Program-made: the position numbers and the translations under genes
Source: a virus
Virus record (IMG/VR): IMGVR_UViG_3300043621_000039
Span: 1 to 61,890 of that record
Direction: 5' to 3' (one strand)
Length of the DNA stretch: 61,890 nt
Notes under the pieces: model-generated
The model's database searches: none
What the model saw: the letters and a program-made list of their open reading frames with translations, nothing else
What the model was told of the DNA's origin: nothing
Part shown: piece after piece, positions 15,375-57,272 of the stretch
How positions within the stretch are numbered: the first letter of the stretch is position 1
Layout of the letters: each line of letters opens with the position of its first letter

Positions 15375-15749
15375 TCGCTCCGCTAGGGGTGGGGGTAGTC
15401 GCTCCGCTACCCCCAACCCAGATACTCAACCCAGATACCCGAGTAAAGAATGTTTTTAGTACCGGTGAGTAACGGCAGAGTTGAAGATCGTTTAGGGGGC
15501 CGGTATCTGGGTTGGTAGCTGAGTTGAAGCTGAGTTTTCACTCAACCCAGATACCGGATGTATTACCTGGTAGAAGTGGGTATTTACAAGATCGGGTATC
15601 TGGGTATCTGGGTTTACGGGAAAGAAGATAGAGATTCGTAAAAAACAGGGGTTCTACCCCGGTACGTTTACGTAGGGGCTAAGTCTGACCGTCAACCCAG
15701 ATACCCAGATACCCCTACTTCGATAGGAATTGAGTAGAAGGGCTGTACA
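15375..15749. other. Noncoding region, candidate replication origin
   Basis: No plausible gene lies here. The region follows the primase-helicase gene and is packed with direct and inverted copies of AACCCAGATACC (listed separately). It also contains a perfect hairpin of GGGGGTAG and CTACCCCC (15391-15414), two copies of AGCTGAGTT (15517 and 15528), and locally AT-rich stretches near 15445 and 15620-15650. These are the usual parts of an iteron-type origin. Replication activity is inferred, not shown. Confidence 0.65.
15415..15715. repeat. Iteron array: eight copies of AACCCAGATACC in both orientations
   Basis: Forward copies start at 15415 (last base differs), 15428, 15544, 15694 and 15703. 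Reverse-complement copies (GGTATCTGGGTT) start at 15502, 15595 and 15603. The tandem pair at 15594-15614 is the exact reverse complement of the pair at 15694-15714, giving a perfect 21-base inverted repeat with 79 bases between its arms. The copies at 15502 and 15544 form another perfect 12-base inverted pair. No other gene-free region of the genome shows this motif. Confidence 0.85.
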
Positions 15750-17946: not shown

Positions 17947-17951
17947 CCGGC

Positions 17952-17980
17952 TAGCGGCAGTCTGAACGGCGGTTTAGACT
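17952..17980 (+). promoter_or_regulatory. Promoter-like element (TAGCGGCAGT ... TAGACT)
   Basis: TAGCGGCAGT at 17952-17961, 13 bases, TAGACT at 17975-17980. This is the best match to the recurring element. The first credible start codon downstream is at 18757, so it appears to drive a long noncoding RNA or leader. Confidence 0.65.
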
Positions 17981-18111
17981 GCTTTGTGAAGGGGTTGGCA
18001 GCCCTCGATCTTCCTGCTGGTTCCCCCACACAGCTCGAAGAAAAGCCAACGGTCCTACCGCAAGGATCGTGGCGCGCTGCTGGTGGATCGAAGTTCTGGC
18101 GCTAGATGACT

Positions 18112-18224
18112 CGGATCAGGCCCCCTTGGGTGGTGAGCTCAAGGCACGGGACCAGACCTAGTACGCGTGGGACTTCGTGGAGGGCGTACGACCTCCTAGT
18201 GCGGTTCGATTCCGTACGATCCGC
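18112..18224 (+). ncRNA. Possible tRNA-like element (weak)
   Basis: A T-arm TGCGG-TTCGATT-CCGTA lies at 18200-18216. The next seven bases (CGATCCG) can pair six of seven with CGGATCA at 18112-18118. No canonical D-arm is visible, and the interior holds a perfect six-base stem GTACGC/GCGTAC. Length would be about 112, too long for a standard tRNA. Confidence 0.25.
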
Positions 18225-18360
18225 GAAGGATGGTGCTCAGCATCCTGGGAAGGGCTCTGGAGGTCGGACCCCCGCAACCGGAGTATCCTGGAAGACCAGC
18301 GCGCGATGGTCACTGAGAAGTTCGTCGTCCACGGTTTCGCGGCAGTGGCTTCGAGCGGGG

Positions 18361-18473
18361 AGCAAGGTAGCTCAGGTGCCTTACCGGGACCAGGAAGAGC
18401 AGCCCAGACCTCCGAGTCATGAGGATGGCGCGGAGTTAGGGGTCAGATGTGGGTTCGAATCCCACCCTTGCTG
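18361..18473 (+). ncRNA. tRNA-like RNA with enlarged D-loop and anticodon arm
   Basis: The acceptor stem is perfect: AGCAAGG (18361-18367) pairs with CCTTGCT (18466-18472). TAGCTCAG and AGAGCA mark a tRNA D-arm, but with a loop of about 23 bases. The T-arm GTGGG-TTCGAAT-CCCAC is perfect. In place of a 17-base anticodon arm there are about 38 bases that can fold as GACC/GGTC then CTCCG/CGGAG. No seven-base loop with U33 is evident, so no anticodon can be assigned. No CCA is encoded. Confidence 0.5.
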
Positions 18474-18599
18474 CGAGGGCTCCGGCCCTTGAAAACCAGT
18501 TGGCATCTGGCGCTGAGGGTAACGACACAGCTCAGACCTTGCTGGTCACCGGACGGTAGGGTGGAAGCCAACCGTGGCGTATCGGAGAGACGATAGGAG

Positions 18600-18632
18600 G
18601 GGGACCTGCTTCTGATGTGAGGGCAGGTCCCC
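18600..18632 (+). terminator. Strong hairpin, possible terminator
   Basis: GGGGACCTGC (18600-18609) pairs perfectly with GCAGGTCCCC (18623-18632) around a 13-base loop. No T-run follows, so termination is uncertain. A second, weaker hairpin (AACCAAAGC with GCTTTGTGGTT) follows at 18634-18660. Confidence 0.5.
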
Positions 18633-18756
18633 TAACCAAAGCGTCGGTAGCTTTGTGGTTGGTATCCGTACTGCGATCGCTGAAGGAACTCCGTTTACGG
18701 TGCATCCGACGAGAGCCATACGTAACCGCGCCAAACGAAACGAAGGGGCCAGGAAG

Positions 18757-18927
18757 ATGACGCAGGAACGCCGGACCGCATATGACCGTCTGGAGAGTCG
18801 GATGAATCACGTACCGCGCCACGGGGTGCGACTCCGGACCACTCCCGCGCGCTGGCTGCACTCGGCGCTCCGCTCTGCGGGCGACTTCCTGTGGGGCGCG
18901 TTCCAGCCCATCGCCAATGCAGTGTGA
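18757..18927 (+). CDS. Small hypothetical protein
   Basis: 56 residues, basic, with amphipathic C-terminal helix (DFLWGAFQPIANAV). ACGAAGGGGCCAGGAAG directly before the ATG is a close match to the recurring start-associated leader CCGAAGGGACCAG, which supports this start. The 116 bases upstream back to the hairpin at 18632 contain no other gene. Confidence 0.55.
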   Translation: MTQERRTAYDRLESRMNHVPRHGVRLRTTPARWLHSALRSAGDFLWGAFQPIANAV

Positions 18928-55649: not shown

Positions 55650-55675
55650 CCTGGTCGCCGGGAACGGCGGCCAGG
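55650..55675 (+). terminator. Hairpin with GGAA tetraloop
   Basis: CCTGGTCGCCG (55650-55660) pairs with CGGCGGCCAGG (55665-55675), 11 pairs with one G-T, around GGAA. It ends the preceding gene's transcript just before the tRNA-like RNA. Confidence 0.65.
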
Positions 55676-55678
55676 TTC

Positions 55679-55779
55679 GGGGAGGTAGCTCAACGGAGAG
55701 AGCACCGACCGGCGGTGTGGGAGCTGGCGCCCTAGACCGCATGGGTTGGAGGGTTGGGGTTCGAATCCCCACCTCCCCA
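55679..55779 (+). ncRNA. tRNA-like RNA with extended anticodon arm
   Basis: Acceptor stem GGGGAGG (55679-55685) pairs perfectly with CCTCCCC (55772-55778). D-arm TA-GCTC-AACGGAGA-GAGC is canonical in size. T-arm TGGGG-TTCGAAT-CCCCA is perfect. The next helix CCGAC/GTTGG fits an anticodon stem, but it encloses 35 bases instead of 7, which can extend as GCGGT/ACCGC and GGG/CCC with loop AGCTGGCG. No anticodon with U33 can be placed. Total about 100 bases; no CCA encoded; discriminator A. Confidence 0.6.
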
Positions 55780-55810: not shown

Positions 55811-56059
55811 ATGCACCGCCACGCCGAACCGCTACCACTCCTCACCGCCCTACCGCATATCGGGCCGTTGGAGGAGTTCTACATCACCCTGCCCGAACTC
55901 CCGGCGCACGAGGTGGTGTTGCAGCACGTTAGCTCCAACGCTCCCCAGCGAACCGACCCGCGTTGGGCCCGAGCGGTGGCCATACTCGGCGGACTGCTCC
56001 TGATTGGAGCAGGGGTGTTCCTCGCGGCGATCGGCGCGTGGATGGAGTTCAGGCTATGA
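55811..56059 (+). CDS. Membrane protein
   Basis: 82 residues from ATG 55811, the start supported by the leader; the open frame upstream overlaps the tRNA-like RNA and is not coding. A His/Pro/Leu-rich N-terminal half and one membrane segment (VAILGGLLLIGAGVFLAAIG). Function unknown. Confidence 0.6.
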   Translation: MHRHAEPLPLLTALPHIGPLEEFYITLPELPAHEVVLQHVSSNAPQRTDPRWARAVAILGGLLLIGAGVFLAAIGAWMEFRL

Positions 56060-56148
56060 GCGCGGTGCTGAACTTCCTGGGAATCGTCTTGTTGGGGATC
56101 TCCCTGACTGTGGGCGTCATCGCCATCATCCGTGCGGTGCTGAAATGA
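56056..56148 (+). CDS. Very small membrane peptide
   Basis: 30 residues, one membrane segment from residue 5 to 26. Overlaps the genes on both sides by four bases. Confidence 0.5.
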   Translation: MSAVLNFLGIVLLGISLTVGVIAIIRAVLK

Positions 56149-57272
56149 GCCTGCCGATCCTGCGGACCTCCGAGCGGAAGGCCTTCAAGCGCTGCCAGCG
56201 ACGCTGGTGGTGGGGCTACAGGGAGGGCTACGTTCCGGTTGGTACGGAGTCGACTCCGCTGTGGTTCGGTACCGGCATCCACATCGCACTGGCTGAGTGG
56301 TACCTGCCGGGCGTAGCGCGGGGACCGCATCCGGCAGAGACCTTTGAGGCCTTCGCCAAGGACACCATGCGATCTGTGAAGATGGCGAGCGCCACTGAAG
56401 AGCGCGTTGCGGAGTACGCGGACGGTGCGGAGCTTGGCGTCAAGTTGATGGATCTCTACGTCAAGGAGTACGGCAAGGACTCCTCCTGGCACTTCATCCA
56501 GGCCGAGAAAACGTTCAGCATCGCAGTCCCCTGGCCGGATAACACTCGGCAGACCGCCTATGTGGTGGACGAGCAGTCCGGCACCATGGTGGAGTACAAA
56601 GGGACCTATGACGGCGTCTATCGGGACCTAGTGGACGGCCGCATCAAGCTGCTGGAAACCAAGAGCGCCAAGGCGATTCAGACTGGGCACCTGGCGATCG
56701 ATGACCAGGCCGGCAGCTACTGGGCCGTGGCTACTGCATCGCTCCGCAGCGAAGGCCTCATCAAGCCGGATGAGTCGATCGCAGAGATCAACTACAACTT
56801 CGTTCGCAAGGCGCTACCGGATGAGCGACCGAAGGATCCGCAGGGCTACGCTACCAACAAGCCTGTCAAGCTGGATTATGGTACCGTGCTTGGATTTGAG
56901 CCAGGCCCGGCGCTGAACAAGATGACCATACCCAAGCTAGAAGAGTTGGCCCGCTCGCGGGGACTCGTGGTGCTAGGCGAACGATCGAAGGTCCAACCGC
57001 CTCCGATCTTCGAGCGCTTCCCGGTGCATCGGACCTCTGCGGAGCGTGTCACGCAGCTCCGGCGGATCCAGTCGGAAGCGGTCCAGATGCAGCTGATCCG
57101 TGACGGGGTCATCGAGATGACCAAGAGCCCAACCCGGGACTGCAATTGGGATTGCGGTTACTACGGGGTCTGTGAGTTGGAGGAGAGACAGGGCGACTGG
57201 AAGGAGTTGGCCCGGGTATCGATGCGGCGTCAGGACCCTTACGCCGATCACCGCAAGTCAGCTGAGGAGTAA
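56145..57272 (+). CDS. Cas4/RecB-like PD-(D/E)XK exonuclease with predicted iron-sulfur cysteines
   Basis: 375 residues. TYDGVYRD near residue 155 and LLETKSAK near 173 give the D...ExK nuclease core, and QAGSYW near 187 is the conserved Q-motif. FKRCQRRWWW near residue 16 and CNWDCGYYGVC near residue 331 supply four cysteines in the Cas4/AddB arrangement for a [4Fe-4S] cluster. It should degrade DNA ends. Together with the Sak4-like ATPase and SSB-like protein downstream it forms a single-strand annealing or recombination module, as in other phages. There is no CRISPR array here. Confidence 0.88.
   Translation: MSLPILRTSERKAFKRCQRRWWWGYREGYVPVGTESTPLWFGTGIHIALAEWYLPGVARGPHPAETFEAFAKDTMRSVKMASATEERVAEYADGAELGVKLMDLYVKEYGKDSSWHFIQAEKTFSIAVPWPDNTRQTAYVVDEQSGTMVEYKGTYDGVYRDLVDGRIKLLETKSAKAIQTGHLAIDDQAGSYWAVATASLRSEGLIKPDESIAEINYNFVRKALPDERPKDPQGYATNKPVKLDYGTVLGFEPGPALNKMTIPKLEELARSRGLVVLGERSKVQPPPIFERFPVHRTSAERVTQLRRIQSEAVQMQLIRDGVIEMTKSPTRDCNWDCGYYGVCELEERQGDWKELARVSMRRQDPYADHRKSAEE

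Follow-up and report, generated by a model that had tools for sequence, protein, structure and literature searches.

Phage tRNA genes are usually seen as aids to codon usage or as substitutes for cleaved host tRNAs. RNase P and the CCA-adding enzymes recognise the acceptor stem and the elbow of a tRNA, and a tRNA-like element of the mascRNA type marks an RNA end for RNase P. Among the non-tRNA substrates of RNase P are the tRNA-like structures of plant viruses, the phage M3 and C4 RNAs and mRNAs (PMC11143913). Phage tRNAs that evade tRNA-targeting defences keep decoding anticodon loops (PMC10264068, PMC11555353), and phage tRNAs are at times embedded in the linkers of GOLLD RNA (PMC12286853). 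In the literature searched, which included few subscription papers or bioRxiv preprints, phage tRNAs without an anticodon were not described. Here, we describe two such tRNA-like RNAs, elements A and B, in a 61,890-bp stretch of viral DNA (the window). They very probably represent a phage RNA family in which selection maintains the top of the tRNA (acceptor stem, D-arm, T-arm and G18-G19/T-loop elbow) and in which capped hairpins freely take the place of the anticodon arm.

Detection and structure of the elements

The window contains no ordinary tRNA: ARAGORN called 0 tRNAs and 0 tmRNAs (no tmRNA tag gene), by which both identities were rejected, and the Rfam tRNA model (RF00005) matches elements A and B alone (Table 1). 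The match to element A has an E-value of 7.4e-8 in a single-genome search with a cut-off of 29 bits. A cmscan over the whole window listed element B and not element A, which was recovered once cmscan was run on the smaller locus. The initial annotation had placed a tRNA-like RNA at exactly the coordinates of element A, with a perfect 7-bp acceptor stem, a D-arm, a perfect T-arm and a 23-base D-loop, and all of these are borne out. The D-loop measures 6-9 nt in the other listed family members.

The same annotation described about 38 bases in place of the anticodon arm, which could fold as one longer hairpin with the stems GACC/GGTC and CTCCG/CGGAG. The arm is indeed oversized, but the gap between D-stem and T-stem is somewhat longer, 48 nt compared to about 22 nt in a normal tRNA. 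Likewise, CTCCG/CGGAG is present in the minimum-energy fold, whereas the closing stem is made by GCCC with a GGGG run and not by GACC/GGTC. This fold is a cloverleaf with the anticodon arm swapped for one long hairpin (-21.4 kcal/mol), and no standard fold with a valid anticodon was found. The fold energy of element A alone is unremarkable (z -1.5); the case for it is based on the covariance score and conservation in relatives, not on fold energy. Element B has the same design, with perfect outer arms and a fold z of -3.6. In neither element is CCA encoded after base 73. Compared to cultured phages, the region of element A showed no DNA similarity and that of element B chance-level matches at most.

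Table 1. Features of the two loci in the window
Feature	Position	Strand	Remarks
Non-coding stretch (apparent), about 0.8 kb, element A mid-way	17947..18757	+	comparable stretch in G001 and G032
GTTTCGCGGCA motif upstream of element A	18334..18344	+	common to G001 and G032
Element A, anticodon-less tRNA-like RNA	18361..18473	+	RF00005, 37.2 bits; perfect stems
Element A, acceptor stem	18361-18367 / 18466-18472	+	AGCAAGG/CCTTGCT, 7/7 paired
Element A, TA between acceptor and D-stem	18368-18369	+	
Element A, D-stem	18370-18373 / 18397-18400	+	GCTC/GAGC, 4/4 paired
Element A, enlarged D-loop	18374..18396	+	23 nt
Element A, replacement arm	18401..18448	+	GAGG-tetraloop hairpin and short variable linker, no anticodon loop
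Element A, T-arm	18449-18465	+	GTGGG-TTCGAAT-CCCAC, 5/5 paired
Element A, position 73	18473	+	G
Conserved non-coding segment downstream of element A	18529..18603	+	78% identity to G001
Terminator-like stable hairpin, 3' side of non-coding stretch	18600..18632	+	z -4.1 for 18474-18650
Stable hairpin upstream of element B	55650..55675	+	3' end 3 nt before element B
Element B, anticodon-less tRNA-like RNA	55679..55779	+	RF00005, 51.7 bits, E 3.3e-8
Element B, replacement arm	55704-55754	+	51 nt
Cas4-type exonuclease gene downstream of element B (site-B anchor)	56004..57272	+	phrog_1218, E 1e-100

Genomic context and distribution

Two related contigs, G001 and G002, were found via the primase and the helicase (70% and 77% amino acid identity). 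G001 carries elements at both sites and G002 at site B. Site A is occupied in three contigs, i.e. the window, G001, where the element is flanked by homologues of the same genes as in the window, and G032, where it adjoins the same downstream gene. The chance ORF that runs across the site-A non-coding stretch of the window has no homologue in the relatives. Apart from short segments, the stretches of the three phages align poorly; a hairpin analogous to the terminator-like one in the window was read in G001. A scan with GTTTCGCGGCA...GTAGCTC returned 13 stretches, with the element present in the two known relatives alone.

Other structures were observed in this part of the window. A possible third, degenerate tRNA-like sequence (18112-18225) precedes element A within its non-coding stretch, with the T-arm TGCGG-TTCGATT-CCGTA and a 6-bp acceptor CGGATC/GATCCG. 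Further downstream, a 34-nt non-coding segment (18642-18675) is 91% identical to G001 (L052 18896-18929) and looks like part of a D-arm, for which no full structure was found. Directly after the primase gene, a long inverted repeat with TATCTGGG-type units (15591-15724) surfaced as a chance match to a microRNA model and might be a replication or regulatory site.

The Cas4-type exonuclease encoded after element B was aligned and 80 viral loci were collected with this alignment; a tRNA-model search of 60 contigs with these loci gave 14 matches in 12 contigs. In a shuffled control of the scanner, one match was obtained in 400 trials (80 loci x 5), compared to 8 in 80 observed. Together with the window, G001, G002 and Streptomyces phage Yara, the scanned contigs hold 21 tRNA-model matches, sorted by reading the sequences into 14 without a 7-nt anticodon loop, five like ordinary tRNAs and two ambiguous ones (a 7-nt loop is possible in both G051 and G057). 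Yara, a cultured isolate, has two elements, one of them unannotated between genes 58 and 59 and sharing its acceptor with G051. A covariance model built without the replacement arms (R1) added one site-B member, in L282; the long insertion caused it to misplace both elements of the window.

Nine contigs carry an element at site B (the window, G001, G002, G031, G039, G042, G043, L282 (G041) and L270 (G030)), always on the same strand and a short distance upstream of the Cas4-type exonuclease gene. For the relatives recovered by the scan, 43-474 nt separate the end of the element from the start of the exonuclease match. The version in L270 has no D-arm, and a further contig, G084, has a Met-type tRNA near site B. 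The most stable hairpins upstream of the site-B elements exceed those of shuffled sequences (z -3 to -4), whereas no such excess is seen for the window, G001, G002 and G030 (z -0.3 to -1.9). Relatives lacking the element have a hairpin alone at that place. In Mycobacterium phage Zenon (L065), a GOLLD RNA (2004-2463; RF02032, 187.6 bits) is located at the site-B equivalent upstream of the Cas4-type exonuclease gene.

The primase, helicase and exonuclease relatives of the window phage are mostly phages of Actinobacteria; a scan of GTDB genomes with the exonuclease alignment gave no confirmed relative and hence no host. Unrelated phages appear to have such anticodon-less bodies as well, with 34 candidates retained after filtering, some of which look like false positives.

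Conservation of the body and exchange of the arm

For the covariation analysis, 15 bodies were aligned with the replacement arm cut out and the D-loop insert of element A also trimmed. Standard pairs are formed in 98.8% of the body-pair cells and two-sided changes occur in 13 of the 16 body pairs; the members were chosen by the tRNA model, which favours good pairing, but the two-sided change counts and the synteny do not follow from this selection alone. In total, 58 cells are double-changed, compared to 13.8 after shuffling (none of 500 shuffles reached the observed count) and 8-14 after sliding the 3' partner, by which pairing falls to 43-50%. Two body pairs, both G-C pairs of the T-stem, are invariant. 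At site B, the orthologous acceptors read GGGGAGG/CCTCCCC, GGGTAGG/CCTACCC and GGCGAGG/CCTCGTC, and the D-stem changes on both sides together from GCTC/GAGC to GCCT/AGGC. A14, the D-loop GG and the T-loop TTCRA are present in every aligned member.

The replacement arms behave differently. Between orthologues, their identity is 0.27-0.57, compared to 0.28-0.51 for shuffled sequence, while the bodies are 60-88% identical. Most arms consist of one hairpin with a small-loop cap followed by a short linker, the caps including the known stable tetraloops UUCG (G001, site B) and GCAA (G031, site B). The capped hairpins range from about 10 to 60 nt. A covarying body with unrelated arms is the pattern to be expected from selection on the body, with the arm acting only as a cap. 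Since distant relatives have the same body at the same positions with matching pairs of mutations, these RNAs are maintained tRNA mimics, not decayed genes. The acceptor, D and T arms and the conserved elbow residues of a canonical decoding tRNA are present, and the 5-bp anticodon stem with a 7-nt loop and U33 is absent. The tRNA top half with a conserved elbow, as in a tRNA-like RNase P element, is likewise present. We infer that the family members are unable to decode.

Possible roles

The elements are tentatively proposed to be cis-acting substrates of the host tRNA-processing enzymes. In the family, the acceptor and elbow are kept, and base 73 and the anticodon are not. A role in cis is favoured because a hairpin ends 0-4 nt upstream of the tRNA-like body at all eight site-B elements examined, so that RNase P cleavage would provide the upstream mRNA with a hairpin at its 3' end. 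Within the long co-directional transcript of the phage, the body would be released by RNase P acting at its 5' end and a 3' processing enzyme at the opposite end, by which the upstream mRNA would keep its abutting hairpin and the downstream exonuclease mRNA would gain a defined 5' end (tRNA punctuation). A comparable excision might process the longer non-coding RNA that holds element A. As decoding would no longer be needed, the arm could have drifted, being retained merely as a stable cap. Against punctuation, the site-B hairpins may be plain terminators, element A has no strong hairpin directly upstream (z +1.0) and the fixed position may reflect inheritance alone. Moreover, many relatives thrive without any element, indicating that it is evolutionarily dispensable; this is about equally compatible with an accessory role related to defence and with cis-processing.

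Such a defence-related role is the basis of the main alternative, which we regard as unlikely, namely that the RNAs are abundant, CCA-tailed decoys acting in trans. They would soak up defence enzymes of the acceptor end, such as the tail-cleaving nuclease Cas12a3, the toxSAS/CapRel pyrophosphorylases and the MenT/AbiE nucleotidyltransferases, and would not disturb translation as they have no anticodon. The parts kept in the family are those that such enzymes need. Cas12a3 engages the T-arm, acceptor and tail and remains able to cleave when the tRNA loops are removed step by step (PMC12851939), and FaRel2 modifies minihelices through acceptor base pairs (PMC11559606). If the RNAs were decoys, defences acting on the acceptor/CCA end would therefore fit better than anticodon nucleases (PMC12851939, PMC11559606); a decoy for the latter, which the initial annotation's idea of a bait for tRNA nucleases could include, is disfavoured, as the RNAs lack the cleavage target of these nucleases. 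The presence among relatives is patchy and the acceptor sequences differ between orthologues, as expected when chasing enzymes of variable acceptor specificity. However, the conserved position and the abutting hairpin suggest a role in cis, and a simple sigma-70 scan revealed no promoter-like site near element A. Since CCA is not encoded, the tail of a decoy would also need to be added. A search of ten window proteins against a defence library gave no convincing match. It is rather doubtful that the non-decoding bodies are counter-defence baits in which the arm was replaced to avoid both translation and cutting by anticodon nucleases.

Another possibility, quite unlikely in our view, might be that element A is a module of a larger, GOLLD-like non-coding RNA of about 750-800 nt, element B being a separate use of the body. 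In three phages, element A is found in the middle of about 0.8 kb of non-coding DNA; the upstream motif is common to all three and downstream segments are conserved in two, so that such a role is possible at site A. The relative Zenon has its GOLLD RNA at site B. Yet no such RNA is found at site B of the window, and the poor alignment of the three stretches outside short segments also argues against it. GOLLD and other large Rfam RNAs were rejected at site A, as no model, including RF02032, matches the window or the A loci of the relatives; RF02032 does detect the GOLLD RNA of Zenon.

It is very unlikely that the elements are aminoacylated, non-decoding carrier tRNAs feeding an amino acid to a tRNA-dependent enzyme. 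In favour of this reading, nothing is missing from their acceptor, elbow and D-arm, and certain synthetases rely mainly on the acceptor; against it, the main identity elements, base 73 and the first base pairs, differ among orthologues. Base 73 is A, T or C at site B and G, A or T at site A, which argues against a conserved aminoacylation identity. Furthermore, there is no G3-U70 pair in element A or B and no tRNA-dependent ligase among the window proteins tested.

That the elements are real tRNAs with a small intron or insertion removed before use is highly improbable, although such insertions do occur in other phage tRNAs. Excision of a single block restores a 5-bp stem and a 7-nt loop with U33 in 12 of the 30 tRNAs of a class with a CAGCAA motif (0.4 expected), so the test is able to detect real insertions. 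In this family, none of the 13 members gives a canonical anticodon arm (0.1 expected), by which a spliced intron was rejected. The modified tRNA with an insertion suggested in the initial annotation is not supported either, as the entire arm including the stem differs between orthologues, and in two members, with 17 nt from D-stem to T-stem, the arm is below the normal length. In contrast, its argument that intact outer stems speak against decay holds, since the orthologues maintain the stems via compensatory changes and no random mutations were found in the acceptor and T stems of related phages; its interpretation as a whole is partly supported. A decayed tRNA gene or chance cloverleaf is barely conceivable: the anticodon arm is lost and the D-loop of element A enlarged, but this reading is effectively refuted by the covariation and further opposed by the independent retention at sites A and B.

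The CAGCAA tRNAs form a separate gene class (L017, L039, L111, L130, L140, L151, L161, L245 and others), several of them in phages with large tRNA sets. They carry different anticodons and, close to the anticodon stem on its 5' side, an insertion of about 42-49 nt with a hairpin and the conserved CAGCAA (or CTGCAA) motif; these insertions are possibly a family of very small tRNA introns. Further observations are an insert of about 49 nt in the anticodon loop of tRNA-Lys(UUU)-like genes (L006/L022 and L019/L042) and a tRNA-like sequence (L031 1913-2008) in which the anticodon-region loop CTATCC is complementary to GGATAG in a long variable arm, a possible kissing pair.

Comparison with known systems

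The stable small RNAs of phage T4, species 1 and 2 (rnaC and rnaD), are comparable phage products and the T-arm of rnaC is perfect, but no full cloverleaf body was seen, and they were rejected as relatives as they have no RF00005 match. GOLLD RNAs are large non-coding RNAs of phages in which a tRNA may be embedded, and one occupies site B in Zenon, whereas the window has no GOLLD match. The mascRNA/MALAT1 element (RF01684) shares the principle of a tRNA top half without decoding, and element B matches its model weakly, below the cut-off (25.4 bits, E 0.77). Since mascRNA is eukaryotic and has small arms, homology is not claimed. The tRNA-like structures of plant viruses also are viral mimics of the acceptor side of a tRNA. 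However, they are pseudoknotted 3' ends of RNA genomes, while the elements described here are internal to the DNA of a phage and have true cloverleaf bodies.

Compared to canonical tRNAs (RF00005), the elements have the acceptor, D-arm, T-arm and elbow residues and score above the curated cut-off, but instead of a 7-nt loop on a 5-bp anticodon stem they carry an unrelated arm stretch, with 17-64 nt between D-stem and T-stem across the family. Like the phage tRNAs that evade defences, they might be phage-encoded, defence-linked tRNA genes; unlike those, they have no anticodon loop. As most of the tRNA-model matches (14/21) in these actinophage relatives with Cas4-type exonucleases are anticodon-less, this conserved non-decoding set suggests that phages also select the tRNA shape for its own sake. 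This raises the testable question whether the tRNA body is an RNA-processing signal or a bait for tRNA-targeting immunity.
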